A stretch of DNA of 64,000 nt from assembly GCF_900155425.1 (NCBI RefSeq), contig NZ_LT700192.1, forward strand, positions 1 to 64,000, in the 5' to 3' direction. A model generated the notes under the pieces. That model worked only from the letters and a program-made list of their open reading frames with translations. It searched no databases and was not told the origin of the DNA. A program made the translations under genes and the position numbers. Shown one piece after another: positions 36,193 through 61,702 of the stretch. Within the stretch, counting starts at the first letter, position 1. Each line of letters starts with the position of its first letter. The stretch comes from Parabacteroides massiliensis. Its GTDB lineage: Bacteria > Bacteroidota > Bacteroidia > Bacteroidales > Tannerellaceae.

Positions 36193-36222
36193 ATTTAATT
36201 GATAATTGATAACTGACAATTG
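36193..36222 (-). repeat. 7-bp repeat array before the NahK-like gene
   Basis: On the minus strand TCAATTG, TCAGTTA, TCAATTA and TCAATTA follow one another and end about 7 bp before the ATG at 36186. The array lies between the promoter box and the start codon. Confidence 0.7.
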
Positions 36223-36267
36223 AGAATGAAATAAGGGAATGGATTCATTTCGATCATCAATTACGTA

Positions 36268-36275
36268 CAAAAGTA
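36268..36275 (-). promoter_or_regulatory. -7 promoter box of the NahK-like gene
   Basis: The minus strand reads TACTTTTG, 81 bp upstream of the start. The leader transcript would carry the heptamer array. Confidence 0.45.
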
Positions 36276-36340
36276 AGAATATCTTTGTAAATAAAAAATG
36301 GAAGTCGCTTTCTTTATGGATGTCTCCTGATAAAATAGGA

Positions 36341-36368
36341 AAAGGCCATCCTTTTCAGAACGGCCTTT
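36341..36368. terminator. Terminator of rpmE
   Basis: A 7-bp stem (AAAGGCC/GGCCTTT) around a 14-nt loop lies between rpmE2 and the NahK-like gene. A T-run (36374-36380) follows on the plus strand and a weaker one on the minus strand. A short heptamer-like tract (ATTGTCT ATTGTCG ATTGG) lies at 36391-36409, next to the rpmE stop. Confidence 0.6.
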
Positions 36369-36411
36369 CTCTATTTTTTTATCTAAACCAATTGTCTATT
36401 GTCGATTGGTC

Positions 36412-36666
36412 TTATTTTTTGTTACGGTTACCGTAGCGGCTCATGAACTTATCAACACGTCCGGCAGTATCGACCAATTTAGCCTTACCAGTGTAGAACG
36501 GGTGAGAAGTGCTTGAGATTTCGACCTTTACCAGCGGATAAGTAACACCATCGATTTCGATCGTTTCTTTTGCATTGATAGTAGAACGAGTGATAAATAC
36601 GTCCTCGTTTGACATGTCCTTGAATACTACAGGACGATAGTTGTCAGGATGAATTCCTTTTTTCAT
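36412..36666 (-). CDS. rpmE2: 50S ribosomal protein L31 type B
   Basis: The 84-residue protein starts [20 protein letters not shown] and contains [28 protein letters not shown], the L31 signature. No cysteine is present, so this is the zinc-independent type B form, which is somewhat longer than type A. It sits at the central protuberance and bridges the two ribosomal subunits. It is transcribed alone from the promoter at 36734-36764 and ends in a hairpin. Zinc regulation is known for type B L31 in some bacteria, but no Zur site is recognisable here. Confidence 0.97.
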
Positions 36667-36733
36667 TGCTTTGTTATCTTATTTTTTAATTTATATTCTT
36701 ATACTTTAGTTTGGTAACCGGTATTTTGGGTTG

Positions 36734-36764
36734 CAAAGGTATGGATTTGAGTTGAACAAACAAA
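36734..36764 (-). promoter_or_regulatory. Promoter of rpmE2 with -7 and -33 boxes
   Basis: The minus strand has TTTG (36761-36764), a 19-bp spacer and TACCTTTG (36734-36741). This is a full match to the Bacteroides sigma-ABfr consensus TTTG-N19-TAnnTTTG, 67 bp upstream of the start. Confidence 0.65.
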
Positions 36765-36845
36765 GATTTTTGAATTATTTTTTCTATTCGAGCCACTTTT
36801 GTGTTATTTTATATGCTCAAAAGCATAATGTTCTCGGATAGTTAT

Positions 36846-36853
36846 TATCTTTG
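36846..36853 (+). promoter_or_regulatory. -7 promoter box of fba
   Basis: TATCTTTG lies 40 bp upstream of the ATG at 36894. Its position argues against starts further upstream in the same frame. Confidence 0.5.
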
Positions 36854-36893
36854 TGGGAGATTTTTAATCATTAACGTAATAACATATACAACA

Positions 36894-37892
36894 ATGGTAA
36901 ATTACAAAGATTTAGGTTTGGTGAACACAAGAGAAATGTTCGCAAAAGCCATCAAAGGCGGATACGCCATTCCGGCTTTCAACTTTAACAACATGGAACA
37001 GATGCAGGCTATTATCAAGGCTGCTGTTGAAACAAAGTCTCCGGTAATCCTGCAGGTATCTAAAGGTGCTCGCCAATATGCAAATGCTACTCTGTTGCGT
37101 TACATGGCTCAGGGAGCTGTTGAATATGCTAAGGAATTAGGTTGTCCGAATCCTCAGATCGTTCTGCACCTGGATCACGGCGATACGTTCGAAACTTGCA
37201 AAAGTTGTATCGACTCAGGTTTCTCTTCTGTCATGATCGACGGTTCTCATCTTCCTTATGAAGAAAACGTAGCTCTGACTAAGAAAGTTGTTGATTATGC
37301 TCATCAGTTCGATGTAACTGTAGAAGGTGAATTAGGAGTATTGGCAGGTGTTGAAGACGAAGTTTCTTCTGACCACCACACTTATACAGATCCTGAAGAA
37401 GTGATCGATTTCGCTCACCGTACAGGTTGCGATTCTTTGGCTATCTCTATCGGTACTTCTCACGGTGCATACAAGTTTACACCGGAACAGTGCCATATTG
37501 ATCCGAAAACAGGAAGAATGGTTCCTCCTCCATTGGCATTCAATGTATTGGACGCTGTAATGAAAAAACTTCCGGGATTCCCTATCGTTCTTCACGGATC
37601 ATCTTCTGTTCCTCAAGAAGAAGTTGATACAATCAACAAATACGGTGGTGCTCTGAAGGCTGCTATCGGTATTCCTGAAGAAGAATTGCGTAAGGCTGCC
37701 AAGTCTGCTGTTTGCAAAATCAACATCGACTCAGACTCTCGTCTGGCTATGACGGCTGCTATTCGTAAGGTATTCGCTGAAAAACCGGCTGAATTCGACC
37801 CGCGTAAATATCTGGGTCCGGCTCGTGATAATATGGAAAAGCTGTACAAGCACAAAATTATCAACGTACTTGGTTCTAACGATAAACTCTGA
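36894..37892 (+). CDS. fba: Class II fructose-bisphosphate aldolase
   Basis: The ATG at 36894 (MVNYKDLGLVNTREM) gives 332 residues; the open frame extends upstream through the promoter and is not coding there. Zinc and active-site residues lie in IVLHLDHGDTFE (near residue 85), VEGELGVLAG, AISIGTSHGAYKF and FPIVLHGSSSVP, followed by KINIDSDSRLA. The enzyme cleaves fructose-1,6-bisphosphate to DHAP and glyceraldehyde-3-phosphate. Codon use is strongly biased, as expected for a highly expressed glycolytic gene. It is a single-gene unit with a strong terminator. Confidence 0.97.
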   Translation: MVNYKDLGLVNTREMFAKAIKGGYAIPAFNFNNMEQMQAIIKAAVETKSPVILQVSKGARQYANATLLRYMAQGAVEYAKELGCPNPQIVLHLDHGDTFETCKSCIDSGFSSVMIDGSHLPYEENVALTKKVVDYAHQFDVTVEGELGVLAGVEDEVSSDHHTYTDPEEVIDFAHRTGCDSLAISIGTSHGAYKFTPEQCHIDPKTGRMVPPPLAFNVLDAVMKKLPGFPIVLHGSSSVPQEEVDTINKYGGALKAAIGIPEEELRKAAKSAVCKINIDSDSRLAMTAAIRKVFAEKPAEFDPRKYLGPARDNMEKLYKHKIINVLGSNDKL

Positions 37893-37917
37893 TTTTTGTT
37901 CGTGGAGCGAATATATG

Positions 37918-37947
37918 AAAAGGGACACCGGCCGGTGTCCCTTTTTT
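37918..37947 (+). terminator. Strong intrinsic terminator of fba
   Basis: The perfect palindrome GGGACACCGGCCGGTGTCCC (37922-37941), flanked by A and T tracts, is followed by six T. It lies 25 bp after the fba stop. Confidence 0.9.
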
Positions 37948-37952
37948 ATTTG

Positions 37953-37960
37953 TATATTTG
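37953..37960 (+). promoter_or_regulatory. -7 promoter box of the DUF4923 gene
   Basis: TATATTTG lies directly after the fba terminator and 27 bp upstream of the start at 37987. Confidence 0.5.
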
Positions 37961-37986
37961 CATGCTGTAAACATGAGTAAGAATAG

Positions 37987-38613
37987 ATGAATATGAAAAA
38001 AAATTGGATTTTGGGGGTTGCCGTTTGTGGCATATTGTCCGTGTCGGATGCGGCGTACGGACAGTCGATTAAAGACATTTTGAATTCAGCAGCCGTGAAA
38101 GACGCCGTAACGGCTGTGACCGGAGGGAAAAAACTGACGGTGGAAAATCTGGCAGGTACGTGGACGTATGTGAATCCTGCCATCCAGCTGGAAGGTGACA
38201 ATGCGTTGAAGAATGTGGCGGCAAGCGTGGCCTCTTCGGAGATGGAAAAGAAACTGAAAGACTATTGTGCGAAAGTCGGGATCATTGAAGGTGCATTCAA
38301 TTATACTTTTAACACCGACAGTACATTCACCAGTGCCCTGAAAGGCCGTACATTGAAAGGTACTTATTCGTTTAATGCGGACGACAAGACGATGGAGCTG
38401 CACTATGGCAGGATCGGAAAGTCGAAATTGACGACGATGACGGCTCATGTCGTTGTCACCAATGACCAGCTCTCTTTACTTTTCGATGCAGATAAATTAC
38501 TTGATTTCCTTACAAAACTGTCTGCTGTCTCTAAAAATACGACCTTGCAGGCTCTCAATAAGCTGGCAAGCCAATATGATGGGATGAAGATGGGCTTCGA
38601 GCTGAAAAAATAA
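37987..38613 (+). CDS. DUF4923 secreted protein
   Basis: The 208-residue protein has a signal peptide (KKNWILGVAVCGILSVSDAAYG, cleavage near residue 26). It follows the DUF4923 pattern: a short helix (SIKDILNSAAVKDAVTAVTGG), then LAGTWTYVNPAIQLEGDNALKNVAA, and a lipocalin-like antiparallel sheet (FTFNTDSTFTSAL, LKGTYSFNADDKTMELHYG). Such proteins are periplasmic or envelope-associated, with no assigned function. An internal Met three codons in is an alternative start with the same signal peptide. The 3' end converges with the helicase gene over a 13-bp inverted repeat. Confidence 0.88.
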   Translation: MNMKKNWILGVAVCGILSVSDAAYGQSIKDILNSAAVKDAVTAVTGGKKLTVENLAGTWTYVNPAIQLEGDNALKNVAASVASSEMEKKLKDYCAKVGIIEGAFNYTFNTDSTFTSALKGRTLKGTYSFNADDKTMELHYGRIGKSKLTTMTAHVVVTNDQLSLLFDADKLLDFLTKLSAVSKNTTLQALNKLASQYDGMKMGFELKK

Positions 38614-38617
38614 TGGG

Positions 38618-38656
38618 ATAATGTGCCAATATCCCAATATCCCATTGGCACATTAT
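38618..38656. terminator. Bidirectional terminator between convergent genes
   Basis: The arms ATAATGTGCCAAT (38618-38630) and ATTGGCACATTAT (38644-38656) pair perfectly over 13 bp. The right arm includes the helicase stop codon. The loop holds two ATCCC-type units. Confidence 0.65.
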
Positions 38657-40773
38657 TCACCCTTCCTGTATTCGTCTACTATTTCCAACAACTTTGCGCC
38701 ATAATTTTCGACAATCTTTTTCCCGATACCTGGAATTTTGAGAAGATCGCGTCCGCTGACGGGTAAGGTGTTAACTACACCGATCAAGGCTTTTTGTTGC
38801 AGGATGGTGTAAGGGGGAAGGCCCTTTTCGGTAGCCAGTTCATAACGCCAGTGCTTTAATTTGGTGTATAGTTCCGGATGTTTGATGTCGGCCGATATTT
38901 CGAGTTTGGTTGTTTCCGATGATTTTTCGGAACGTTTGCGTGTAGCCGGGGCAGGTGGCTGTTCGATGCTCGCTTTGGCTTTGGCAGACAGATAGCCGGA
39001 AATTGTGAATCCCTCTTGGCAACCTTGCAGGGTCGATAGTTTGATACGAAGGTCTTCGTTCCATTTGTCCAGTGCACTCTTGACTGTTTGGCGTGTTTCT
39101 TTGTTGTCGATTTCCACGTTCGATACGTTCTGCAGCGGAGTGCAAAGGCGGTCTATCTGCTCCAGAAAATAAGCGACCCCTTTACGGACACGTTCCTGTA
39201 TCATGTTGTCTTTCAGGTAATCGGTATTATCGGCTATCAGCCTTTTCAATTGCAGGATGAATCGTTCGCCGACATCTGTGACCGTGGAACGAAACGCATC
39301 GCGGGTGTTGGAATATTGCACGCTCAGTTCCGGATATAGTTTTTGCAGGTTCCCGTACACAATAAAGGCGGCATATTGTATGCGTTGCTGGAGGTTGTTG
39401 AAGTCGAACAGTTCGCAGATCAGTTTCGTGAAATAAAGTTGTTGTGCAGCCTGTATTTGCTCTTCGTGCGGTTGGCGGCTGTCGACCGTTGAAATGAATT
39501 CCTGTATCCGGGAATCGTTGATCATGGCGTTGCGGGTGATCCGGCTGCTCAGAACGAGTCCTTCCAGTGTCTTGCAACGGCTCAGTGCGACATACACCTG
39601 TCCGTGCGAAAATGCGGCTGAAGCGTCGATGATGGCATGCTCGAAAGTCAGCCCCTGGCTTTTGTGGATAGTGATCGCCCAAGCTGTTTTCAGCGGATAT
39701 TGGCTGAATGTACCCGAAATCGTTTCGGTAATTTCCTGCGTTTCGGGATCGATCGTGTATTTCACGTTGTTCCAGGTTTCCTTTTCTACAACGATTTCGT
39801 TGCCTTCCCGGTCGACTACGGTTATCTTGTTGGTATTGATAAATACGATTTTCCCGATCTTCCCGTTGTAATATCGCTTTTCGGAAGAAGAATCGTTTTT
39901 GACGAACATGACTTGTGCACCGCATTTCAGAGTCAGCTTGTCGTCGGTCGGGTAAGAATATTCCGGAAACTCATGGTTGATCTCGGCCTGAAAAGTATAA
40001 GGCAGTCCGGGCAGTTCCGCCAATTTCCGGTTGTTGATCTGCTGTGCCTGGTAGTTATGTGTCGTGAGCGTGATGTAGCCCGATTCTTCGTCCGGCCGGA
40101 AGTCAGGAATGTACCGCCGGTTCAACTGCTGCAAGGTCTCGTCGTCGAAACGATTCTCGCGGATATTATTCAATAGGTTGATGAAGTTCGTGTCGCTTTG
40201 TCGATAGACATGTGTCAGTTCGATGCAGAAATAATTACTTTCCGACAACGCCTTGCTGTCGAAAAAGAAGGTAGACGGATAGTGTTCTTTCAGCAAATTC
40301 CATTCATCGTCTTTGGCAACAGGCGCTAATTGCTGCAAGTCTCCGATGAGCAACAGTTGGACTCCTCCGAACGGTTTGCTGTGGTCTTTGTAGCGGCGCA
40401 AGACATCGCTGATGGCATCCAGCAGGTCTGCACGTACCATACTGACTTCGTCGATCACCAACAGGTCCATGCTGCGGATGATGTTGATCTTATCCTTGCG
40501 GAACTGGTTCTTGAAATCTTTTTTACCTTCCGAAGATGAAGACGGAAGGTAAGGGCCGAACGGCAGTTGGAAAAAGGAGTGAATGGTGACGCCTCCGGCA
40601 TTAATGGCCGCTACTCCGGTTGGCGCCACGACGATCATCCGCTTGGGTGAAACCTCTTTCAGCCTTTTTAAGAAGGTGGTTTTACCGGTTCCGGCTTTAC
40701 CTGTCAGAAAAAGGTTGGTTCCGGTGTTCTGTAATAAGTTGAAGGCGAGGTCAAACTGTTGGTTTGTCTGCAT
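38653..40773 (-). CDS. Pif1-like superfamily 1 helicase with HRDC domain
   Basis: The 706-residue protein has helicase motif I GKAGTGKTTF near residues 22-31, Ia VAPTGVAAINAGG, II LLVIDEVSM near 104, III LLIGDLQQLAPV, a UvrD-C-like segment (AWAITIHKSQGLTFEHAI, motif V) and VYVALSRC (motif VI). These define Pif1/RecD2-type 5'-3' helicases. A Lys-rich linker then leads to a C-terminal HRDC-like helical domain (LYTKLKHWRYELATEKGLPPYTILQ, and a helix-hairpin-helix-like LLKIPGIGKKIVENYGAKLLEIV). It may act on G-quadruplexes or stalled forks. It is a single gene with a promoter box at 40802. Confidence 0.93.
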   Translation of the reverse strand: MQTNQQFDLAFNLLQNTGTNLFLTGKAGTGKTTFLKRLKEVSPKRMIVVAPTGVAAINAGGVTIHSFFQLPFGPYLPSSSSEGKKDFKNQFRKDKINIIRSMDLLVIDEVSMVRADLLDAISDVLRRYKDHSKPFGGVQLLLIGDLQQLAPVAKDDEWNLLKEHYPSTFFFDSKALSESNYFCIELTHVYRQSDTNFINLLNNIRENRFDDETLQQLNRRYIPDFRPDEESGYITLTTHNYQAQQINNRKLAELPGLPYTFQAEINHEFPEYSYPTDDKLTLKCGAQVMFVKNDSSSEKRYYNGKIGKIVFINTNKITVVDREGNEIVVEKETWNNVKYTIDPETQEITETISGTFSQYPLKTAWAITIHKSQGLTFEHAIIDASAAFSHGQVYVALSRCKTLEGLVLSSRITRNAMINDSRIQEFISTVDSRQPHEEQIQAAQQLYFTKLICELFDFNNLQQRIQYAAFIVYGNLQKLYPELSVQYSNTRDAFRSTVTDVGERFILQLKRLIADNTDYLKDNMIQERVRKGVAYFLEQIDRLCTPLQNVSNVEIDNKETRQTVKSALDKWNEDLRIKLSTLQGCQEGFTISGYLSAKAKASIEQPPAPATRKRSEKSSETTKLEISADIKHPELYTKLKHWRYELATEKGLPPYTILQQKALIGVVNTLPVSGRDLLKIPGIGKKIVENYGAKLLEIVDEYRKGE

Positions 40774-41154
40774 GGTAATTTTGTAAAATTGTTAGTCCTT
40801 ACAAAATTACACAAAATATTAGAATCGTCAAGACATTAACCAGAGGGGGAAACGAAATTAGGGAAAAAACGGATAGATAAATATTTTCAGCGTTTTCGTT
40901 TTGGTGAAAATAAATTTTCATCGGCGGGGAAAAAAAATTTTTTTATATTGAAAAATTTTTTTTTCTTTTTTGAAAAATTTTTTTTTTTTCCGGGTAATTC
41001 GTTTCTTTTGTCAACAATAAGGCGAAAAAATGGGTAAAAAAGATCAGGAAAAACAAAAAAAAAGGATAAAACGGGGCGGAGGGGATGCTGGGGGGGGGGG
41101 GCGGTTTTTTTCCCTATATGGAAAATTTATTTTCATGCCGAGGTAATCCGTCTC
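40774..41154. other. Abnormal intergenic region with homopolymers and a smeared duplication
   Basis: Near 40802-40809 the minus strand carries TAATTTTG, a -7 box for the helicase gene. From about 40925 the sequence becomes homopolymer-rich. Positions 40956-41092 align without gaps to 41105-41241 (offset 149), the 3' end of the AspT-family gene and its flank. About three quarters of bases are identical over 101 columns, and most differences replace a base by the base before it. A run of 12 G (41090-41101) ends the copy. This looks like an assembly or sequencing artefact. Confidence 0.7.
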
Positions 41155-42753
41155 TTATGCCACCAATACGGCAATAAACTGGATAAAGAGGATCAGGAAC
41201 ACCATAGCAATCGGATAGACCGTGGCGTAGGCGATGCTGGGAGCGGAGCTGTCGCTCATCGAATCGGCAGCGGCAAGCCCCGGTGTGCTGGTCATTCCTC
41301 CGGCGATCGTCCCGATCAGGTCCAGAATGTGTATTTTGAAGACAAAATGCCCGAACAGGACGGCTATGATCATCGGTACTATTGTGATCGCCATCCCGAC
41401 TCCGAACAATGTCCAGCCGCTCTCCTGGAAAGTCGACACCAGGTTGACACCGGCCGATGTCCCAACTTCGGAGAGGAACAGAAGCAGACCGATCTGGCGG
41501 AGCAGTTGGTTGGCGGAACCGGACATGGACCAAATGACCGGGCCTGTCTTGCCGATTGCGCTCAGGACAAGCGCGACAATCAGGATGCCGCCTGTCAGAC
41601 CGGGCGAGAAAGAAAAAGAGTCCGAAAATGAAATATTCAGCTTTCCGAACAACACTCCGAGGACAATACCCGCCGCAATCGGGAAAAAGTCCGTATCGGA
41701 AAGTTTTTTCTCGTCATTCCCGAACACTTGCCCCAATTCCTTTATGTCTTCTTTTTCTCCGGCCACCATCAGCTTGTCGCCGAATTTCAGCAACAGGTCC
41801 GGTTCGGGCGAGAGGTCGATCCCGCTTCGGCGTACACGGGTGACGGTACAGTTGAACGTGCGTTGCAGATTCAGGTAGCCCAGGCTCTTGTTGATGACCT
41901 CCTTGTTTGTTACCAACAGCGATTGCAGTTCCTGCGTGCTGCCGAAAGGAAGGTCGTTCTCTACACGTTCGCCGACAAGAAGCGTTAGTTGTTCCAAAGA
42001 ATTGTCGTTGCCGACAGCCTTGATCATGTCTCCTTCGTGCAGGATGGTTTGCGCGACCGGTATGCTTGTCCGGTCTTTATGTTTCACACGGGAAATGACA
42101 GCACCCGTCATGGAACGGAGTTGTAACTGGGCCAGTGTTTTCCCGAATATATTGGCGTGGGTGATGCGGAAAGTCGCCGTGTGCAACGGAGGATATTTCC
42201 CTTTCCGCTGTGTATCGAGCGCTTTGGCTTCGGCGACAAGATCCTTACGCAGCAACTTCGGCAGTAATTTTATGAAAAGTATCACACCGATCACCCCGAA
42301 CGGATAGGCGATACCGTAGGCGATGGAAGCGGAAGAGGAATGCGTGCTGTCGATCGCAACGGCAAGTCCCGGTGTGCTGGTCAGCGCCCCGGCGATCAGG
42401 CCCACAAGGCTCGGCGTGTCGATCCCGACTGCATATTTAAGAGCCAAGCCCGTGAGACTGGCCGAACCGACGATCAGGAGTGTCAGTATGATCAGTGTTT
42501 TTCCTTTCGAACGGAAGGAGTCGAAGAAACCGGGGCCCGCTTGTATGCCGATGGTGAAAATGAACAGTACCAAGCCGAAATTTCCCAGTTCCTTAGGAAT
42601 GATTACCCCGAAATGGCCGAACAGGAGAGCGATAAAGATAACGGCTGATACATCGAGGGAGAGACCTTTGAACTGTATTCTGCCCAACATGAACCCTAAG
42701 GCGATAATCAGGAACAAGGCAAAATAGGACGATTGAAGCAATGTTTCAAACAT
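41155..42753 (-). CDS. AspT/YidE/YbjL-family transporter with two RCK_C domains
   Basis: The ATG at 42753 (MFETLLQSSYFALFLIIALGFMLG) gives 532 residues. Two homologous membrane halves, each with ~5 helices and a conserved GALTSTPGLA / GGMTSTPGLA motif, surround a cytosolic centre (about 195-370) that contains two TrkA-C/RCK_C-like units (FGKTLAQLQLRSMTGAVISRV and VTRVRRSGIDLSPEPDLLLKFGDKLMVAGE). This is the layout of the aspartate:alanine exchanger family (AAE, TC 2.A.81). Substrate is unknown; an amino-acid or anion exchanger is likely. The stop lies in the region duplicated upstream in smeared form. Monocistronic. Confidence 0.92.
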   Translation of the reverse strand: MFETLLQSSYFALFLIIALGFMLGRIQFKGLSLDVSAVIFIALLFGHFGVIIPKELGNFGLVLFIFTIGIQAGPGFFDSFRSKGKTLIILTLLIVGSASLTGLALKYAVGIDTPSLVGLIAGALTSTPGLAVAIDSTHSSSASIAYGIAYPFGVIGVILFIKLLPKLLRKDLVAEAKALDTQRKGKYPPLHTATFRITHANIFGKTLAQLQLRSMTGAVISRVKHKDRTSIPVAQTILHEGDMIKAVGNDNSLEQLTLLVGERVENDLPFGSTQELQSLLVTNKEVINKSLGYLNLQRTFNCTVTRVRRSGIDLSPEPDLLLKFGDKLMVAGEKEDIKELGQVFGNDEKKLSDTDFFPIAAGIVLGVLFGKLNISFSDSFSFSPGLTGGILIVALVLSAIGKTGPVIWSMSGSANQLLRQIGLLLFLSEVGTSAGVNLVSTFQESGWTLFGVGMAITIVPMIIAVLFGHFVFKIHILDLIGTIAGGMTSTPGLAAADSMSDSSAPSIAYATVYPIAMVFLILFIQFIAVLVA

Positions 42754-42785
42754 GTCGAATAGTTTTTTGTAAAGATTTATATTTG

Positions 42786-42793
42786 CAAATTTA
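42786..42793 (-). promoter_or_regulatory. -7 promoter box of the AspT-family gene
   Basis: The minus strand reads TAAATTTG, matching TAnnTTTG, 32 bp upstream of the start. Confidence 0.45.
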
Positions 42794-42836
42794 CACTTTT
42801 CTGTCAGTATAGGCAATCCTCTGGCGAGATTTCTGT

Positions 42837-42844
42837 TACCTTTG
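42837..42844 (+). promoter_or_regulatory. -7 promoter box of the truA-eamA pair
   Basis: TACCTTTG lies 36 bp upstream of the GTG start at 42881, divergent from the AspT-family gene. Confidence 0.5.
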
Positions 42845-42880
42845 TACCCGAATTAAAAAACAGAAGCAGGATATTCCGAC

Positions 42881-43663
42881 GTGAACAGATATTTTATATA
42901 TTTAGGTTATAACGGCAAAAAGTTTTGTGGCTGGCAGATACAACCGAATGGAACCACTGTACAGCAATCCATCGAAGATGCATTGGCGACTTTATTGCGC
43001 CGGCCGGTCCCGATCGTGGGAGCCGGGCGGACGGATGCCGGAGTGCATGCCCGCCTGATGGTGGCTCATTTCGACTGGCAGGAACCGATTGCCGACCTCG
43101 CCTTTCTGGCGGAGAAGCTGAATCGTTTGCTGCCCAAGGATATCGCGATCTATCGTATCGTGCCTGTTCGTCCCGATGCGCATGCCCGGTTCGATGCCAC
43201 TTCGCGTACATATAAGTATTATATCACGACACGGAAAGATCCGTTCAATTACGAACTGGTCTATAAAATTCCGGGAAAACTCGATTTCGAGGCGATGAAC
43301 AAAGCTTGCTCGGTTTTGTTCGATTATATAGATTTCACCAGTTTCAGCAAGTTGCACACGGATGTGAAGACGAACAACTGTCGCATCTATGAGGCCGGTT
43401 GGGAGCAGGAAGGCGATGTTTGGGTTTTCACCATACAGGCAGACCGTTTCCTGCGCAATATGGTGCGTGCCATTGTCGGGACGCTTCTGGAAGTAGGGCG
43501 GGGCAAGCTTTCCATCGACGGTTTCCGCCAGGTGATCGAAGCCAAGGACCGCGGTCGTGCCGGAACCTCCGCTCCCGGACATGCGCTCTATCTGGTCGAT
43601 GTCACCTACCCCGAAAATACGTTTGTAATTCTCAATTCTCAATTCTTATGTGGCTCGGATTAG
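42881..43663 (+). CDS. truA: tRNA pseudouridine(38-40) synthase
   Basis: The 260-residue protein begins at GTG 42881 ([21 protein letters not shown]). The catalytic Asp lies in [12 protein letters not shown] near residue 54. [14 protein letters not shown] and [29 protein letters not shown] are further TruA motifs. It isomerises uridines 38-40 in the anticodon arm of tRNAs. The last ~15 codons read through a 7-bp repeat tract (AATTCTC units), so the C-terminus after TYPENT is probably not conserved. It overlaps the start of the EamA gene by 16 bp. Confidence 0.96.
43627..43647 (+). repeat. 7-bp repeat array before the EamA-family gene
   Basis: AATTCTC units (sense TCAATTC) lie in tandem at the 3' end of truA and end directly at the ATG at 43648. 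Confidence 0.65.
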
Positions 43664-44866: not shown

Positions 44867-44915
44867 ATACGTTACCTTTTATGATTACTTATGGCAAAGG
44901 TAGATATTTTATTTT

Positions 44916-46256: not shown

Positions 46257-46751
46257 ATGGAACTCGAAACGTTTAAAATAACCGTGCTGCCGCTCCGGGA
46301 TAAGTTGATCAATATTTCGTGGCGGATGATGGAGGACAGGTCGGATGCAGAGGACATCGTGCAGGAGACTTTTCTGAAATTGTGGCAGATTCGCGAGAAG
46401 CTGGACGGCTATAACAGTGTCGAGGCACTGGCTGTACAAGTGGCCAAGAACCTGGCACTGGACAAACTGAAACAGCATCGGCCGGAAGGTATGGATATCA
46501 CTTCGCTTTCGCTCGATTCGGGAACAAGAAATCCGGCGGAAGAACTGGAACAGCACGATACGGTAGACCGTATCCGTTGGCTGATAAGCAAGCTGCCTTC
46601 ACTTCAGCAAACCATTATCCGGATGAAAGACGTCGAAGGGTATGAGTTGGCGGAGATAGCGGAGATAACAGGCACTCAGGTCGAAGCGGTTCGGGTGAAT
46701 CTTTCGAGAGCCAGGAAAAAGATACGGGAACAGTTAATGAGAGATTTATAA
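46257..46751 (+). CDS. ECF-family RNA polymerase sigma factor
   Basis: The ATG at 46257 (MELETFKITVLPLRDKLINIS) gives 164 residues, typical for an ECF sigma. Region 2 includes WRMMEDRSDAEDIVQETFLKLWQIREKL (core and -10 binding). Region 4 includes LPSLQQTIIRMKDVEGYELAEIAEITGTQVEAVRVNLSRARKKI, with the -35 helix-turn-helix. It is followed 3 bp later by a gene that looks like its anti-sigma factor, and two envelope genes. A TTTCTTTG near 46231 is only a partial promoter box. It likely controls this locus and envelope functions. Confidence 0.93.
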   Translation: MELETFKITVLPLRDKLINISWRMMEDRSDAEDIVQETFLKLWQIREKLDGYNSVEALAVQVAKNLALDKLKQHRPEGMDITSLSLDSGTRNPAEELEQHDTVDRIRWLISKLPSLQQTIIRMKDVEGYELAEIAEITGTQVEAVRVNLSRARKKIREQLMRDL

Positions 46752-50732: not shown

Positions 50733-51752
50733 ATGGGATTATTTTCTTTCACACAAGAATTGGCAATGGACCTGGGGACTGCCAATACCATTATTACCTG
50801 TAATGATAAGATGGTAGTGGATGAGCCTTCCGTGATCGCTCTGGATGCTCGTTCGGAAAAGGTACTGGCGGTAGGACGCCAGGCACGAGAGATGTACGAA
50901 AAGACCAATCCGAATATTCGTACGATCCGTCCGCTCCGCGAAGGTGTCATAGCCGACTTCTACGCTGCCGAGCAGATGATGCGTGGATTGATCAAAATGG
51001 CCAGCGGACGTAAACGCTGGTTCGCTCCTTCGCTCCGTATGGTGATCGGTATCCCGTCGGGTAGTACGGAAGTTGAAATCCGTGCCGTACGCGACTCTGC
51101 CGAACATGCCGGTGGCCGTGAAGTATATATGGTTTTTGAACCGATGGCTGCCGCTATCGGGGTCGGTATGGATGTGCTTGCGCCCGAAGGAAACATGATT
51201 GTCGATATAGGTGGCGGTACGACCGAGATCGCGGTGATTTCGCTGGGGGGCATCGTTTCCAACAAGTCCATCAAAATGGCGGGTGACGACCTGACGAACG
51301 ATATCGTGGAATATATGCGTCGCCAACATAATATACGTGTCAGCGAGCGTATGGCGGAACGTATCAAGATCAATGTCGGCTCCGCTTTGAGTATCCTCGA
51401 AGACGCTCCTGAAGATTTTGAAGTATGCGGTCCGAACCAGATGACAGCTCTGCCGATGAAAGTGCCTGTTTCCTATCAGGAGATTGCACATTGTCTCGAT
51501 AAATCGATCTCAAAGATTGAAGCGGCTGTTCTGAGCGCGTTGGAACAGACACCTCCCGAATTGTATGCCGATATCGTGAAAAACGGCATCTATCTGGCCG
51601 GAGGCGGCGCTTTGCTGCGTGGCATCGACAAACGTTTGCGCGATAAGATGGGGATCGAATTCCATGTGGCAGACGATCCTTTGCATGCTGTTGCCAGAGG
51701 TACGGGGATTGCGTTGAAGAATATCGACAAATTTAATTTCCTTATCCGGTAA
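50733..51752 (+). CDS. mreB: Rod-shape-determining actin homologue MreB
   Basis: The 339-residue protein has the actin-fold ATP site: phosphate-1 MDLGTANTIITCNDKMVVDEPSVIAL, phosphate-2 MIVDIGGGTTEIAVISLGG near residue 155, and adenosine GIYLAGGGALLRGIDKRL. An N-terminal amphipathic segment (MGLFSFTQEL) may contact the membrane. It forms filaments that direct lateral wall synthesis. Its downstream partners mreC, mreD, mrdA and rodA are in the same operon. The gap to mreC (100 bp) contains a heptamer repeat and an inverted copy. Confidence 0.98.
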   Translation: MGLFSFTQELAMDLGTANTIITCNDKMVVDEPSVIALDARSEKVLAVGRQAREMYEKTNPNIRTIRPLREGVIADFYAAEQMMRGLIKMASGRKRWFAPSLRMVIGIPSGSTEVEIRAVRDSAEHAGGREVYMVFEPMAAAIGVGMDVLAPEGNMIVDIGGGTTEIAVISLGGIVSNKSIKMAGDDLTNDIVEYMRRQHNIRVSERMAERIKINVGSALSILEDAPEDFEVCGPNQMTALPMKVPVSYQEIAHCLDKSISKIEAAVLSALEQTPPELYADIVKNGIYLAGGGALLRGIDKRLRDKMGIEFHVADDPLHAVARGTGIALKNIDKFNFLIR

Positions 51753-51759
51753 ATATAAG

Positions 51760-51848
51760 TTGAAAGTTGAGAGTTGAAAGTTGAATGTAAACGGGTGGTA
51801 CACTTGCTGAATATTCAACTTTCAACTTTCAATTTTCAATTTTCAACT
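51760..51848 (+). repeat. 7-bp repeat arrays in inverted orientation between mreB and mreC
   Basis: AGTTGAA-type units (51760-51787) and, after a ~24-bp spacer, TTCAACT TTCAACT TTCAATT TTCAATT TTCAACT (51812-51848) form two opposing heptad arrays. The second ends 4 bp before the ATG of mreC. The pair could fold into a stem of about 28 bp. Confidence 0.75.
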
Positions 51849-51852
51849 GATT

Positions 51853-52695
51853 ATGCGTAAACTCCTGGATTTTTTAGTCAGAAAGAGGCATTGGTTCTTG
51901 TTCATTTTGCTTGAGATCATATCGTTGATGCTGGTTTATCGCAATAATGCGTACCAACGGAACATTATGTTCAGTTCGGCAAATGTGATAACGGGACATA
52001 TTGCTTCTGTCTCCGGCTTTGTGACTTCCTACCTGAACCTGCGCGACATAAACCGGGAGCTTCTGGAGCGTAACGGGCAGCTTGAAATGGAGTTGCTCGA
52101 ATTACAGGATCAGTTGGAGATGATGCGAGCCGACACGGTCCTCTTTACCGGTTTTGCGTCTGACTCGACCGAACAGTTTCCGTATAGTTTTGTGTTGGCT
52201 GATGTCGTGAACAACAGTGTCACGCATTTGTCCAATTATATCACAGTGAACAAAGGCCGTAAGGATGGAGTGGAGCCTGACATGGGGGTTGTCTCCGAAC
52301 GGGGTGTCGTGGGAATCGTGTCGACGGTTTCCGACCATTTTTCCGTTGTGATTCCTCTGTTGAACCCGAAGTTTAAGTTGAGTTGCAAAGTGCTGGGAAG
52401 CAGTTATTTCGGAACATTGAGTTGGAACGGGCGTAATGCGCGTTTTGCCAATCTGGACGAATTGCCGCGCCATGTGGAGTTTGAGCTTGGAGATACGATC
52501 GTGACGAGCGGTTATTCCGCTATTTTCCCATCCGGTATTATTGTGGGTAAAGTTGTGAATTTCGAGAAACAGCATGATGATAATTTCTATTCGCTTGAAG
52601 TGGAACTGGCTACTGATTTTCAGGCTTTGAACAATGTGCGTATCATAAAGAATTACCGTCAGGCGGAGCAAAAAAGAATAGAGCAGGGAGGCTAA
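51853..52695 (+). CDS. mreC: Rod-shape-determining protein MreC
   Basis: The 280-residue protein has one N-terminal membrane helix (WFLFILLEIISLMLVY, residues ~14-30), a coiled coil (~60-95: NRELLERNGQLEMELLELQDQLEMM) and a periplasmic beta-barrel domain with YITVNKGRKDGVEPDMGVVSERGVVGIV and SFGTL-like strands, ending FQALNNVRIIKNY. It is the periplasmic scaffold linking MreB, MreD and PBP2. The ATG at 51853 follows the heptad array, and mreD starts 5 bp after its stop. Confidence 0.96.
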   Translation: MRKLLDFLVRKRHWFLFILLEIISLMLVYRNNAYQRNIMFSSANVITGHIASVSGFVTSYLNLRDINRELLERNGQLEMELLELQDQLEMMRADTVLFTGFASDSTEQFPYSFVLADVVNNSVTHLSNYITVNKGRKDGVEPDMGVVSERGVVGIVSTVSDHFSVVIPLLNPKFKLSCKVLGSSYFGTLSWNGRNARFANLDELPRHVEFELGDTIVTSGYSAIFPSGIIVGKVVNFEKQHDDNFYSLEVELATDFQALNNVRIIKNYRQAEQKRIEQGG

Positions 52696-56521: not shown

Positions 56522-56553
56522 CAAGCGGGTGTTTGGGTTGTACGAGTAAGTCG

Positions 56554-57090: not shown

Positions 57091-58408
57091 TATTCGGTTG
57101 CTTATCGTTATTTACTCGGTTCGGACGCGGTCTGTTACGGTTACGGTTTCCGTTCTTGCTACCGTTTCCTTTTCCGTTTTTATTTTCGTTACCGTTGTTG
57201 ACGTTCGCTTTTTCTCCGTTGGCGGGTTTGTTGTTCCCTTCGTTGCCATTGTTGGTTGCGGCTTCTTTCGGAAGGTTTTCCTTGTTGCCGTTATTTTCCT
57301 TGTTGCCGTTTCCACTGCGTCTCTTTTTCTTCTTTTTCAGGGAAGAATCGAAACGGGTAACACTGTCCTGTCCCAAGATATCCTGCGCATCGCGTTTAGG
57401 CGGTTGCGGTTTGGTATCGGCTTCGAGCGTGACGGGCTTCATGCCTTTCTTGTTCATGTTGATCACGTCGAAGGCACGGCTGGCCGGGATCGTAACCAAA
57501 TTGGCTGCGAAAGATTTATCTGTAGAGTAGGTGATTTCCCGTTTGAAGATATCCGTTTTAAAGTGATAATAGGTATTGTCTTTTGTCTCCAGTACCACTT
57601 CGCGGGACGGTAAACGCTTTTGTGCTTCCACATAGGTGTCTACTTCGTAGTTGATGCAACATTTCAGCTTGGCGCATTGGCCGGCCAACTTTTGGGGATT
57701 CATGGAAATATCCTGATAGCGGGCGGCTCCGGTAGCAACCGACACGAAACTCGTCATCCAACTTGAGCAGCACAATTCGCGTCCGCAAGGACCGATACCG
57801 CCGATACGTCCGGCTTCCTGGCGGGCGCCGATCTGCTTCATTTCGATGCGGACCCGGAAGGCTTCGGCAAGTACTTTGATCAACTGGCGGAAGTCGACAC
57901 GCTCGTCGGCAATATAATAAAAGATTGCCTTGTTGCCGTCACCCTGGTATTCAACGTCCCCGATCTTCATATTCAGTCCTAAGTCGGCCGCGATCTGTCG
58001 TGAACGGATCATCGTGGCATGTTCCTTAGCCTTCGCCTCTTCATATTTCTCGATATCGGTCGGTTTGGCTTTGCGATAAACTTTCTTAGGCTCATAACCT
58101 TCGCCGGTGCGGACATTGTTCTTTTTCATCTGAAGGAGGACGAGTTTGCCGGTCAGTGTCACGGTCCCGATGTCATGTCCGGGGCTGGCTTCCACTGCGA
58201 CTAAATCTCCTTTTTCCAGAGGTATTTTGGAACTGTTGAGGTAATACCCTTTACGGGTGTTCTTAAACTGTACTTCCACGTAATCGGTTGCGTTTGCCGC
58301 ATCGGGCACGTCGCAAAGCCAATCATAGGTATTCAGTTTATTATTTTGTATCTTGCTGCATCCCTTTTTACCCATGCAGCAACTTCCTGTATTTAATTTA
58401 AAATCCAT
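57005..58408 (-). CDS. ricT: PSP1-domain (RicT/YaaT-like) protein with Asn/Lys/Pro-rich tail
   Basis: Start at MDFKLNTGSCCMGKKGC (58408) gives 467 residues. The N-terminal ~300 residues have Cys clusters (GSCCMGKKGC; GPCGRELCCSSWM; GQCAKLKCCINYE) and the PSP1 core (VEVQFKNTRKGYYLNSSKIPLEKGDLVAVEASPGHDIGTVTLTG). In other bacteria the homologue is part of a [4Fe-4S] protein complex that affects RNase Y. The last ~130 residues are low-complexity, rich in Asn, Lys, Glu, Arg and Pro (NGNK and KP repeats), unlike the core, and overlap gldH by 86 bp. Located in the cytosol. Confidence 0.88.
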   Translation of the reverse strand: MDFKLNTGSCCMGKKGCSKIQNNKLNTYDWLCDVPDAANATDYVEVQFKNTRKGYYLNSSKIPLEKGDLVAVEASPGHDIGTVTLTGKLVLLQMKKNNVRTGEGYEPKKVYRKAKPTDIEKYEEAKAKEHATMIRSRQIAADLGLNMKIGDVEYQGDGNKAIFYYIADERVDFRQLIKVLAEAFRVRIEMKQIGARQEAGRIGGIGPCGRELCCSSWMTSFVSVATGAARYQDISMNPQKLAGQCAKLKCCINYEVDTYVEAQKRLPSREVVLETKDNTYYHFKTDIFKREITYSTDKSFAANLVTIPASRAFDVINMNKKGMKPVTLEADTKPQPPKRDAQDILGQDSVTRFDSSLKKKKKRRSGNGNKENNGNKENLPKEAATNNGNEGNNKPANGEKANVNNGNENKNGKGNGSKNGNRNRNRPRPNRVNNDKQPNNDKPQQQAKPAAKPDSKPESKPNTKPEA

Positions 58409-58506
58409 TTGTCCGGTATATATATAATGTATGTATAGTGTGTACAATTACGCAAAAATACGTAAAATATTTGGTTCGTAGCAAATGTAGAATGAATTAT
58501 AAAGAG

Positions 58507-58540
58507 AAAGGGCAAAACAGAAAACTCCGTTTTGCCCTTT
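58507..58540 (-). terminator. Terminator of the serine palmitoyltransferase gene
   Basis: The arms AAAGGGCAAAAC (58507-58518) and GTTTTGCCCTTT (58529-58540) form a perfect 12-bp stem with a 10-nt loop, 24 bp beyond the minus-strand stop of spt. Confidence 0.8.
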
Positions 58541-58563
58541 TCTTTATCATGACCCGTACTGAT

Positions 58564-59751
58564 TTATTTAACCAGCCCGTGGTTTTTGAATACTTTGTGA
58601 ATTGCTTCCAATGCGTAGTTGAGCTGTTCGATCGTGTGAGTCGCCATCAGTGAGAAGCGGATCAGCGTATCTTCAGGCGCAACAGCCGGAGAAACTACCG
58701 GGTTTACGAAAATACCGGCTTCGAATAATTCTTTTACAATCAGGAATGTCAGATCGTTGTCGCGGATAAACAACGGGATGATCGGCGTTGAAGTATGACC
58801 GATTTCACAGCCCATGTTGCGGAATCCATCCAATGCATAGTGAGTCAGTTTCCACAGATGCTCGATGCGTTCAGGTTCGCTCAACATGATATCGAGTGCC
58901 GCACCGGCAGCAGCAGTAGCGGCAGGAGTGTTGCTTGCACTGAATATATAGGAGCGGGAATTGTGACGGAGATAATTGATTGTCTCTTTATCCGAGGCGA
59001 TGAAACCGCCGATAGAAGCAAGTGACTTGCTGAATGTACCCATGATCAGGTCTACATCGTCAGTCACACCGAAGTGATTACAAGTTCCCCGGCCGTGATC
59101 GCCCAAAACACCCAGGCCGTGAGCTTCGTCAACCATTACGCTTGCATTATATTTCTTAGCCAACGCCACGATTTCCGGTAATTTGGCAATGTCGCCTTCC
59201 ATACTGAACACACCGTCGATAACGATCAGCTTCACTTTGTCGGGTTCGCATTTCTGGAGCTGCTTTTCCAGAGACTCAATGTCGTTATGTTTGTATTTCA
59301 GTTTGGTGGAGAAAGAAAGACGGTGTCCTTCAATGATAGATGCATGATCCAACTCGTCCCAGATGATATAGTCTTCACGTCCTGTCAGGCAGGATACTAC
59401 ACCTAAGTTTACCTGAAATCCAGTAGAATAAACAATGGCATCTTCCTTACCGACAAATTCGGCCAGACGTTTTTCCAACTGAATGTGCAAATCCAGCGTT
59501 CCGTTCAGGAAACGCGAACCGGCACAACCCGTACCATATTTCTTAATGGCATCAATAGCTGCCTCTTTTACTTTCGGATGGTTTGTCAGGCCTAAATAGG
59601 CATTAGAACCAAACATCAGGACCTTTTTACCGCTGATCGTTACTTCTGTATCCTGATCACTTTCAATCATTCTGAAGTATGGATAAATTCCTGCGGCCAT
59701 GGCCCGTTGAGGAGCATCGTACTTTGATAGTTTCTCTTGTAAAAGTTTCAT
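58564..59751 (-). CDS. spt: Serine palmitoyltransferase (alpha-oxoamine synthase family)
   Basis: The 395-residue PLP enzyme belongs to the AOS family (KBL, BioF, HemA, SPT). It contains KVLMFGSNAYLGLTNHPKV, GTGCAGSRFLNGTLDLHIQLE, DHASIIEG, DGVFSMEGDIAKLP, VMVDEAHGLGVLG (PLP ring contacts) and the lysine segment MGTFSKSLASIGGF near residue 240. The sequence follows the sphingolipid-forming enzyme of Bacteroides and Parabacteroides more than 2-amino-3-ketobutyrate ligase, in particular the start MKLLQEKLSKYD. It condenses serine with an acyl-CoA to start sphingolipid synthesis. It is divergent from a lipid kinase gene. KBL remains an alternative. Confidence 0.85.
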   Translation of the reverse strand: MKLLQEKLSKYDAPQRAMAAGIYPYFRMIESDQDTEVTISGKKVLMFGSNAYLGLTNHPKVKEAAIDAIKKYGTGCAGSRFLNGTLDLHIQLEKRLAEFVGKEDAIVYSTGFQVNLGVVSCLTGREDYIIWDELDHASIIEGHRLSFSTKLKYKHNDIESLEKQLQKCEPDKVKLIVIDGVFSMEGDIAKLPEIVALAKKYNASVMVDEAHGLGVLGDHGRGTCNHFGVTDDVDLIMGTFSKSLASIGGFIASDKETINYLRHNSRSYIFSASNTPAATAAAGAALDIMLSEPERIEHLWKLTHYALDGFRNMGCEIGHTSTPIIPLFIRDNDLTFLIVKELFEAGIFVNPVVSPAVAPEDTLIRFSLMATHTIEQLNYALEAIHKVFKNHGLVK

Positions 59752-59850
59752 ATTATAATTAACAGAGAATGATTTTCTCGCTACGTTGTTATTCTAAAAG
59801 AATCCGGATTTGCTTACTACATAATATTTATGTTTCGGCAAATCCAGCTG

Positions 59851-59858
59851 CAAAAGTA
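59851..59858 (-). promoter_or_regulatory. -7 promoter box of spt
   Basis: The minus strand reads TACTTTTG, matching TAnnTTTG, about 100 bp upstream of the start, so the leader is long. Confidence 0.4.
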
Positions 59859-59911
59859 GTAAAAAAATAACTTATAGTAGCCGAAATGCTTTAAAAGTTT
59901 TACAAAAGCAT

Positions 59912-59919
59912 TATTTTTG
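59912..59919 (+). promoter_or_regulatory. -7 promoter box of the lipid kinase gene
   Basis: TATTTTTG matches TAnnTTTG, 26 bp upstream of the ATG at 59946. Confidence 0.45.
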
Positions 59920-59945
59920 TCCCTTCAAAGTAAGTAACAGTTAGA

Positions 59946-60917
59946 ATGGAGGGACAAGCAATCAGCATACAGGCCATTATAAATCCGATATCGGGTGTCG
60001 GTTCGAAAAGGAAGATTCCGAAAATGATTGAGACTGCATTTGCGGGCGGAAATAGAAGTGTGGAAATTTCTTTTACGGAATATCCCGGGCATGCCAGCGA
60101 ATTGACGCGGCAAGCACTTGAGAAAGGTGCTAATTGTGTGATTGCCGTCGGGGGAGACGGAACTGTGAACGAGATAGCCCGTGCCATGCTCCATTCGGAT
60201 GCTGTGTTAGGAATTATCCCGAAAGGTTCCGGCAACGGCCTGGCACGTGAATTACATATTCCGATGGATGCACGCCGGGCGATCGACCTGATAGCAAAAG
60301 GGCACATTTCGACAATTGACTGTTGCAAGGCGAACGGACGTATTTTTTTCTGTACCTGCGGAGTCGGTTTTGATGCGGCGGTCAGTCAGAAGTTTGCCGG
60401 AGAGAAACGCCGCGGGTCACTCACTTATATAAAGAACACGGTGGAGGAATATCTGAGTTACCGGCCCGAACCTTATGAACTTTTGATCGATAACCAGACG
60501 GTCAAGGAAAAGGCGTTTCTGGTGGCTTGCGGAAATGCTTCCCAATATGGTAATAATGCGTTTATCGCCCCCCATGCCAATATTCAGGATGGTGAGATGG
60601 ACATAACGATCCTTTCTCCTTTCGGGCCGTTGGACATAGCGCCCTTGGCGATCCAATTGTTTACGAAGCAGATCGACCGGAATAGCAAGATCAAGACATT
60701 CAAAGGAAAAGAGGTTACGATCATCCGCCAGAAGCCGGGAGTCATGCATCTGGACGGCGAACCAGTCATGGCAGACAGCCGGATCGAGATATCCGTTCTT
60801 CCTAAATCATTGAATGTATTGACTCCCGAAACTGTTTCCTTTACGGAAGAGGTGCAGAACCTGTTTGGCGAAGTAACCCGCTTCTTCGATAAGAAACTCC
60901 CTTACATCTTCAGATAA
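59946..60917 (+). CDS. YegS/DgkB-type lipid kinase
   Basis: The 323-residue protein belongs to the diacylglycerol/sphingosine-kinase family. IINPISGVGSKRKIPKM (residue ~6) and VIAVGGDGTVNEIARAML (~63, the GGDGT nucleotide motif) are followed by LGIIPKGSGNGLARELHIP. The C-terminal half is the beta-sandwich lipid-binding domain (DGEMDITILSPFGP, VMHLDGEPVM). It phosphorylates a lipid hydroxyl with ATP at the membrane. Divergence from the serine palmitoyltransferase gene suggests a sphingoid-base or ceramide kinase role, but diacylglycerol is also possible. Its 3' end overlaps the convergent methyltransferase by 16 bp. Confidence 0.9.
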   Translation: MEGQAISIQAIINPISGVGSKRKIPKMIETAFAGGNRSVEISFTEYPGHASELTRQALEKGANCVIAVGGDGTVNEIARAMLHSDAVLGIIPKGSGNGLARELHIPMDARRAIDLIAKGHISTIDCCKANGRIFFCTCGVGFDAAVSQKFAGEKRRGSLTYIKNTVEEYLSYRPEPYELLIDNQTVKEKAFLVACGNASQYGNNAFIAPHANIQDGEMDITILSPFGPLDIAPLAIQLFTKQIDRNSKIKTFKGKEVTIIRQKPGVMHLDGEPVMADSRIEISVLPKSLNVLTPETVSFTEEVQNLFGEVTRFFDKKLPYIFR

Positions 60918-61618
60918 AAATCTTTGGTCAGGCTGATATACTCGTCGGTGTATTGATGCCTTGCAATCTCGATGGTCAGTTGGTCGGAGCATGTGAAAGG
61001 AGTGGTCGATTCTGCCGTCAGTTCGACTAACAACCGTTTCGGCTCGGCACCGGGCACGGGAATGACGGAGGTCTCTTTCGATAGAAACAGATGGTATGTC
61101 CGGATGCAATCCGCAAGACGTTCTTTTTGATCGTAGGGCAAGATGAGAGCGATGCGTCCCTGCGGGGCAAGCAGTTTTCGGCTGTCCTGCAACAAATCTT
61201 CCAATGTCAGCGTGTCGGTATGGCGGGCCGTGTTTCGCTTCCGGTCGGGACATTTCAACGAGTCGACGAAATAAGGGGGATTGGATACAATCAGGTCATA
61301 TAGATTCGTGCCGGCTTGTGCGAAATCGGCCAAGGCGGAATGCCGGACATTTATCCGTCCGGCAAAGGAAGAAGATTCTGTGTTTTCCTGTGCCTGGAGG
61401 CAAGCATCGGCATCTATGTCGATGGCGTCGATAACAGCTTTGCTGCGTTGTGCCAACATCAGGGCGATCAGTCCGGTTCCTGTTCCGATGTCCAGTATGC
61501 GGTTGCATGATTCTATTCCGGCCCATGCTCCGAGCAGAACACCGTCGGTCCCTACTTTCATCGCACATTTATCATGGCGGATGGTAAACTGTTTGAATTG
61601 GAAAAAAGGATTTGACAT
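60902..61618 (-). CDS. trmN6: tRNA1(Val) adenine-37 N6-methyltransferase-like protein
   Basis: The start at ATG 61618 (MSNPFFQFKQFTIRHDKCAMKV) gives 238 residues; an ATG four codons upstream falls in the repeat tract. The SAM fold shows ILDIGTGTGLIALMLAQRS (motif I) and DLIVSNPPYFV (the NPPY motif of N6-adenine methyltransferases), with AMKVGTDGVLLGAWA near residue 19 typical of the TrmN6/YfiC family. It methylates A37 of valine tRNA in E. coli. The 3' end overlaps the lipid kinase gene by 16 bp. A heptad array lies directly upstream. Confidence 0.9.
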   Translation of the reverse strand: MSNPFFQFKQFTIRHDKCAMKVGTDGVLLGAWAGIESCNRILDIGTGTGLIALMLAQRSKAVIDAIDIDADACLQAQENTESSSFAGRINVRHSALADFAQAGTNLYDLIVSNPPYFVDSLKCPDRKRNTARHTDTLTLEDLLQDSRKLLAPQGRIALILPYDQKERLADCIRTYHLFLSKETSVIPVPGAEPKRLLVELTAESTTPFTCSDQLTIEIARHQYTDEYISLTKDFYLKM

Positions 61619-61620
61619 AG

Positions 61621-61702
61621 CAATTGACAATTAGTAATTGACAATTGACAATTGGTGTGGACTGAGTAATTGTTCATAGTCACATGGTCCATTGTCAATT
61701 GT
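61621..61702 (-). repeat. 7-bp repeat array before trmN6
   Basis: On the minus strand TCAATTG, TCAATTA, CTAATTG and TCAATTG end 3 bp before the ATG at 61618. A short inverted copy (CCATTGTCAATTG) lies at 61689-61701 on the plus strand. Together they could form a hairpin across the leader. Confidence 0.7.

Follow-up and report, generated by a model that had tools for sequence, protein, structure and literature searches.

Intergenic heptad arrays of Parabacteroides massiliensis and a predicted mreB-mreC hairpin rebuilt from changing repeats

Heptad arrays at four genes

Several descriptions exist of heptad repeats in the gaps between bacterial genes, but there is no consensus on what they do or where they come from. 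The stretch analysed here, referred to as the window, comprises positions 1 to 64,000 of contig NZ_LT700192.1 of Parabacteroides massiliensis (assembly GCF_900155425.1). It carries tandem heptads before the predicted starts of four genes, namely an APH-family kinase gene, an EamA transporter gene, mreC and a gene for a small methyltransferase with an MTS domain (Table 1). These names follow Pfam; the first-pass annotation had called the kinase NahK-like and the methyltransferase trmN6, and the latter label is kept below. Units are termed R-type when they fit ARTTGAN or TTTATRA and Y-type when they fit the complements. The array at mreC is one arm of a predicted hairpin spanning the gap between mreB and mreC, and comparison across the genus shows such a putative sense-mRNA hairpin retained, with changing letters, in nearly all Parabacteroides tested.

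Table 1. Heptad arrays and accompanying features in the window. Starts are those predicted by our gene caller; the fourth column gives the spans of Tandem Repeats Finder, all of period 7; MFE, minimum free energy.
Feature	Position	Strand	Tandem Repeats Finder	Remarks
Heptad array upstream of APH-family kinase gene	36193..36227	-	36196-36227	Sense Y-type (TCAATTN / TCAGTTA); start 36186; APH PF01636
Heptad-like R-type sequence	36388..36409	-		Far end of kinase gap, past stop of next minus-strand gene
Heptad array before EamA	43627..43647	+	43627-43646	AATTCTC, 2.9 copies; start 43648; overlaps 3' end of upstream pseudouridine synthase frame (42881-43663)
Left (R-type) arm, predicted mreB-mreC hairpin	51757..51785	+	51757-51785	4 nt past mreB stop
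Right (Y-type) arm, predicted mreB-mreC hairpin	51814..51848	+	51814-51848	4 nt ahead of mreC start (51853)
Whole mreB-mreC gap, predicted RNA hairpin	51753..51852	+		MFE -44.6 kcal/mol, z -9.5
Heptad array upstream of methyltransferase gene (trmN6)	61620..61654	-	61621-61654	Sense Y-type; about 2 nt from start (61618)
Inverted partner of trmN6 array	61689..61704	-		CCATTGTCAATTGTTT on +
GCAAAAGTAG	61708..61717	-		Also present in most usable relatives

All four arrays proposed in the first-pass annotation were found in the sequence and by Tandem Repeats Finder, and the sense strand ahead of the start is of the TCAAYTN type in each case. The distance to the start, which had been put at 0 to 7 bp throughout, holds for EamA (1), the methyltransferase (2) and mreC (4), but amounts to 9 bp at the kinase gene (6 by the earlier coordinates). 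As the EamA array lies inside the upstream frame, it does not occupy free intergenic sequence, and no inverted partner was seen for it. Inverted partners had been assigned to mreC and trmN6 only. Both are real, but the kinase gap also holds a heptad-like R-type sequence, whose counterpart in the related genome G024 is 7 nt shorter (by eye). The mreC gap folds strongly as RNA, while the leaders of trmN6 and the kinase gene fold weakly (z -2.6 and -2.2). The decamer GCAAAAGTAG resembles what we take to be the Bacteroides-type -7 element, TAnnTTTG; if it is one, the trmN6 palindrome would lie between promoter and start. Rfam gave no family in the window at gathering scores. Among named records, MreC is best matched by Parabacteroides acidifaciens (92% identical).

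A genome-wide class of intergenic heptads

The statistics cover a sampled part of the 5.02-Mb genome, namely the window with 40 evenly spaced 20-kb stretches (864 kb; 463 gaps with 111,446 gap bases) and further stretches centred on pattern matches. Genes were predicted with a scripted caller, which gave 699 genes (528 and 692 in earlier versions) and some of whose starts may be wrong. In the 463 gaps, 38 arrays of period 7 were detected compared to a mean of 0.2 in five shuffles. Period 14, a multiple of 7, accounted for 22 arrays, and each of the periods 4-6, 8-13 and 15 for none or one. Coding sequence contained only 7 period-7 arrays in 743,613 bases. Array clusters numbered 71 and occupied 48 of the 463 gaps, compared to a mean of 5.3 in ten shuffles. 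The four arrays belong to a genome-wide class of intergenic tandem heptads, which often occur as facing inverted pairs. A restriction of the heptads to co-directional gaps is not supported, such gaps making up 39 of the 48 array gaps and 340 of all 463 (Fisher p 0.23).

The commonest units were TTTATGA-type, AATTGAC and AAGTTGA, the latter two fitting ARTTGAN, the complement of NTCAAYT. None of the listed array units contains a GGG run. The genome-wide count of TCAAYTN called for in the first-pass annotation gave 71 exact three-unit matches; a reversed pattern is not a clean control for this search since TCAACT reads the same backwards. The TTTATGA family was matched 196 times in the genome with at most one mismatch. 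Across 12 genomes, three-unit TCAAYTN counts ranged from 0 to 151, the pattern being present in seven and missing from five. The highest count belongs to Prevotella sp. RUG765 (locus L055, genome G011), with 151 matches in 3.4 Mb.

Polarity at the edges of genes

The layout of the arrays was studied in 117 array gaps, i.e. the 48 unbiased ones and 69 that were fetched for carrying arrays, so that the following counts are not frequencies. Of 59 neighbouring pairs of opposite type, 58 were arranged R..Y and one Y..R. Of the arrays up to 15 nt from a start codon, 59 were Y-type and 4 R-type in the sense of the gene, and of those equally near a stop codon 59 were R-type and 18 Y-type. The unbiased gaps taken alone gave 26:1 (Y:R) at starts and 22:10 (R:Y) at stops. 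In convergent gaps, which have no start codon, R-type arrays also prevailed (8 to 1) and all three pairs were R..Y. Co-directional gaps with a single array had it in sense Y orientation 43 times and in R orientation 15 times.

Arrays also lie nearer to genes than expected by chance. Their median distance to a gene end was 10 nt compared to 18.8 nt under random placement in the same gaps (59 arrays), and 36 of the 59 lay within 15 nt of a gene end, where 2000 random placements averaged 25 and never exceeded 37. Hence the strand bias and the proximity to genes predicted earlier are both borne out. The further proposal that the bias marks a ribosome-binding device is not, since stop codons and convergent gaps show the mirror-image preference, so that the polarity is not specific to ribosome binding, and since orthologous genes lack the array or have another family in its place. 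The start-codon bias is one face of an R..Y layout centred on gene edges.

Gain, loss and replacement among relatives

Orthologous gaps were compared between P. massiliensis and the genomes G024, G026, G032, G013, G016 and G021. G024 and G026 are 93 and 92% identical to P. massiliensis over the mreB-mreC probe. Length steps of 7 bp, as postulated at the outset, are seen between species. The gap 46751/46755 measures 3 nt in P. massiliensis, 10 nt in G024 and 17 nt each in G026, G013 and G032, and thus changes as if whole heptads had been gained or lost against the start codon. The purH-mreB gap has 5 nt in P. massiliensis. In G024, G026 and G032 it is 107-121 nt long and contains a TTTATGA palindrome, and G013 has an octad palindrome of 90 nt there. 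In one divergent gap, G026 has array family C where P. massiliensis, G024 and G032 have family A (by eye); in another gap, family C occurs in P. massiliensis and G026, no family in G024 and family A in G013. A strict test of gaps of up to 300 nt represented in at least three species found that the presence of A or C arrays differs among species in all 15 orthologous gaps that have them, mreB-mreC included; this test misses decayed arrays that are visible otherwise (G026 at 9767/11719, P. massiliensis at 14404/15436).

For single loci, 38 genomes of the genus were searched and the best 30 loci were kept for each. The mraY-murD gap carries a 65-bp palindrome in P. massiliensis, G024, G026 and G032 only, and 23 other loci have less than 20 nt between the two genes; of the five hairpins scored there, the one of L254 belongs to an unrelated, 341-nt gap. 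At trmN6, 14 of the 30 loci had no usable flank pair, and among the 16 usable ones the heptad palindrome is found in P. massiliensis and G024 only and is collapsed in G026. Three hairpins were scored, of which L294 is weak and not a heptad hairpin. In heptad gaps, gap-length differences of 7, 14 or 21 nt were seen 19 times and the six lengths adjacent to these 14 times. The same tendency (11 and 6) is shown by gaps in which no heptads were detected, and the species pairs are not independent; therefore, we rely on the single cases and not on the length spectrum. Most heptad arrays appear to behave as fast-changing gap clutter. Gain, loss, resizing by 7 nt and exchange of families are more readily explained by dispersed repeats prone to slippage than by conserved tuners of translation.

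The hairpin between mreB and mreC

The gap between mreB and mreC was studied in a set of 31 gaps, from which five named loci duplicating genomes of the set were excluded, as were L035, for its stretch of N, and L156, for which mreC gave no match. Its inverted repeat scored better than 40 of 40 shuffles in 29 of the 31 gaps, or in 28 of the 30 same-genus gaps when the weak Prevotella one is left aside. In named records, which partly reuse genomes of this set and are not independent of it, the palindrome was found in 11 of 12 Parabacteroides, in none of three other Tannerellaceae and in 4 of 16 testable others; a further 28 of the other records have a gap of less than 25 nt. The L035 entry of this survey represents the part past the N run, including the end of mreB.

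While the hairpin is retained, its building blocks are not. The arms consist of AAGTTGA in P. massiliensis and elsewhere of AATTGAC, AGTTGAC, TTTATGA, GAATGAA, the AATATGCC octad (octads form the arms in G013 and G021) or no clear repeat. The gap is exactly 100 nt long in the three closest species, and the median distance of the outer pair is 5 nt from the mreB stop and 12.5 nt from the mreC start.

The strand on which pairing matters was assessed from mismatches scored with equal penalties. If the symmetry of the repeats on DNA were the sole cause, G-T and A-C should be equally frequent on the sense strand, whereas pairing of the sense RNA would tolerate G-U and not A-C. At mreB-mreC the ratio of G-U to A-C was 80:27 in the 31-gap set. 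It was 30:9 with one gap per sequence group and without the Prevotella locus L055, 11 of the 12 groups being in favour and one tied. By comparison, the 52 heptad hairpins in co-directional gaps of P. massiliensis had 74 G-U and 65 A-C; 46 co-directional gaps had no hairpin, and 5 of the 117 gaps were skipped as too long or containing N. RNA selection on heptad hairpins in general is thus not supported, and there is no clear sign of it in this test of limited power. Non-repeat hairpins of P. massiliensis and relatives gave 79:45, in a set which includes orthologues and possibly decayed heptads. The excess at mreB-mreC, unlike the near-balance in heptad hairpins of the same genome, suggests that an RNA hairpin is under selection at this site, where pairing of the sense RNA appears to be favoured.

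Interpretation and alternatives

Taken together, the arrays are probably dispersed, slippage-prone gap heptads, and the mreB-mreC hairpin among them is probably kept by selection on the sense mRNA. The heptads, often palindromic, have an R array behind the edge of one gene and the complementary Y array ahead of the following one, and slippage would alter their copy number in steps of 7 nt. They may persist beside gene edges since elsewhere they would break frames or promoters. Where an intergenic hairpin is useful, selection would retain it, and at mreB-mreC it would be rebuilt from whichever heptads, octads or non-repeat sequence are available. The putative hairpin is likely to separate the expression of mreB from that of mreC, by protecting the 3' end of mreB, by damping initiation at mreC or both. 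Such a separation is plausible given the 1.3-kb monocistronic mreB transcript described for Anabaena (PMC7593598).

Several points weigh against this interpretation. Two of the 30 same-genus gaps, L157 and L159, fail the palindrome test, and L043 is the one of the 12 named Parabacteroides without the palindrome. The species behind the G-U count are not independent, and the 12 groups were formed by sequence similarity and not from a tree. In a smaller, overlapping set, repeat hairpins gave a G-U to A-C ratio of 31:23 (16:15 in P. massiliensis, 15:8 in relatives), where the generic-heptad test has limited power. The 18 Y-type arrays near stop codons run counter to the strand rule, although 13 of them lie in gaps short enough to be near both ends. 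Slippage alone leaves the polarity unexplained. Finally, no spreading mechanism was found, no target-site duplication was seen by eye, and the 3.3-kb loci of the four Y1-transposase matches in the genome contain no arrays.

Three other explanations are unlikely to a similar degree. According to the first, Y-type heptads before starts form or space the ribosome-binding region and slippage by 7 nt alters the output. The bias at starts, the preponderance of sense Y in single-array gaps and the steps at 46751/46755 speak for it, as does the Y array that remains where the palindrome is missing in P. massiliensis (10765/11911, 14404/15436). It does not account for the mirrored preference beside stops and in convergent gaps, for orthologues without arrays or for the equal length of the mreC gap in three species. 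As a general account it is therefore improbable, although slippage may tune translation at single genes.

Mobile palindromic elements inserted by a transposase with fixed polarity, of the kind of miniature inverted-repeat transposable elements (MITEs) or repetitive extragenic palindromic (REP) sequences, are hardly more convincing. Several palindrome families are dispersed, they are gained and lost between close species, and their R..Y polarity is fixed. Spacers vary among copies (by eye), some sites change length in heptad steps, and no target duplications were seen by eye, which argues against insertion as well. REP sequences and bacterial interspersed mosaic elements (BIMEs), with their REP-associated tyrosine transposases (RAYTs), are dispersed intergenic palindromes. 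The arms found here are tandem heptads instead, and no association with Y1-transposase genes was found, the four Y1_Tnp matches having no arrays within about 1.5 kb.

Selection at the codon level would disfavour start-like codons ahead of genes and favour spare stop codons behind them, and in this way produce the polarity from arrays arising in both directions. The unit content, with TGA in R units and no ATG in Y units, is in line with it, as are the biases at starts and stops. We consider it doubtful since Y-type units with G at the N position contain TTG and the GGGAATC unit of Xanthomonas follows the same strand rule with neither TGA nor ATG, as described in PMC4692102.

Least probable are transcription terminators or 3'-end hairpins, for which R arrays following stops and a few palindromes between a stop and a promoter-like motif (by eye) could be quoted, since the arms extend to the next start codon, only 3 of the 55 convergent gaps of the sample have arrays and, at mreB-mreC, an intrinsic terminator with a G+C-rich stem and a T-run was rejected (no terminator-like site within 51650-51950; the stems have a median G+C of 0.34, and 3 of the 30 same-genus gaps show a T-run behind them).

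Relation to known heptads

Families of intergenic heptads are familiar from cyanobacteria as short tandemly repeated repetitive (STRR) sequences. For Parabacteroides, no published account of heptad families was found among the papers listed in searches of the open-licence literature; the repeat strings themselves gave no match in papers, a weak test since strings of this kind are rarely printed.

In the study of Rehm et al. (2015; PMC4692102), intergenic heptads read GGGAATC in Xanthomonas, and those of Nostoc have the unit GGGGA(C/T)T. Most are located no further than 50 bp from a gene; ahead of starts they occupy the non-coding strand and behind stops the coding strand. Convergently oriented pairs are given as common in Xanthomonas (70 in Xcc, 75 in Xac) and few in Nostoc. 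Length and sequence vary between relatives, and the study found neither a favoured gene class nor a role. The arrays of P. massiliensis share the 7-nt unit, the concentration in gaps (38 in 111 kb as opposed to 7 in 744 kb of coding sequence), the strand rule and the inverted pairs (58:1) with the heptads described there. They differ in their A+T-rich units without G-tracts, in the presence of more than one family per genome, in the replacement of families and in the conserved mreB-mreC hairpin. While GGGAATC repeats form quadruplexes, the units found here lack the G-tracts these need. As A+T-rich units without G-tracts obey the same strand rule, quadruplexes cannot be its general reason.

MacGregor (2015; PMC4679880) describes direct repeats of TAACTGA before starts in marine Beggiatoaceae, cyanobacteria and five Bacteroidetes and proposes that they regulate translation. 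Their distribution is sporadic, and two closely related Cyanothece strains differ by 7-nt indels. For the main genome, a single indirect repeat is mentioned. Heptads directly before starts and 7-nt indels between relatives are common to both systems. However, the strand before starts is TAACTGA in the sense direction in that description and complement-type in P. massiliensis, where the kinase array has one TAACTGA unit, in reverse to the gene.

A strand rule already published for two distant groups thus recurs here with different letters. The mreB-mreC case, from an operon responsible for cell shape, suggests that an RNA structure can be kept through turnover of its sequence. Such structures would escape searches that rely on alignment or are of the Rfam type. 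More speculatively, and with somewhat less than even confidence, heptad palindromes could be regarded as a stock of ready-made RNA hairpins, the mreB-mreC structure as kept in the genus by selection on sense-strand pairing, without sequence homology, through repeated wholesale replacement by the families in circulation, and the R..Y polarity, which the heptads of Xanthomonas and Nostoc share, as the outcome of an as yet undescribed mechanism common to distant phyla.

Other repeats

Further repeats were noticed in the window and elsewhere. The convergent gap 38614-38652 contains octad-like repeats (AATATCCC), and longer AATATGCC-like octad palindromes stand at this place in G024 and G026. Adjoining tandem repeats with periods of 22 and 149 bp occupy 40938-41241, and the gap 40773/41155 measures 381 nt in P. 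massiliensis, 237 nt in G024 and 98 nt in G026. A stretch of about 190-210 bp (L121:11503-11714, corresponding to C3:691503-691714 of P. massiliensis) matches more than ten dispersed places in G024 and is missing at the orthologous site in G024 and G026. Its G+C-rich palindromic GGGCAGAGCAGAGCCCTGCCCCTAC recurs in L101 near 11709 and in L119 near 16760 (by eye). In G032 (L236), the gap orthologous to L128:16636-16722 holds a run of CCCGTCCTCTCGGCAGAGGATT units of about 22 bp, found in this genome only.

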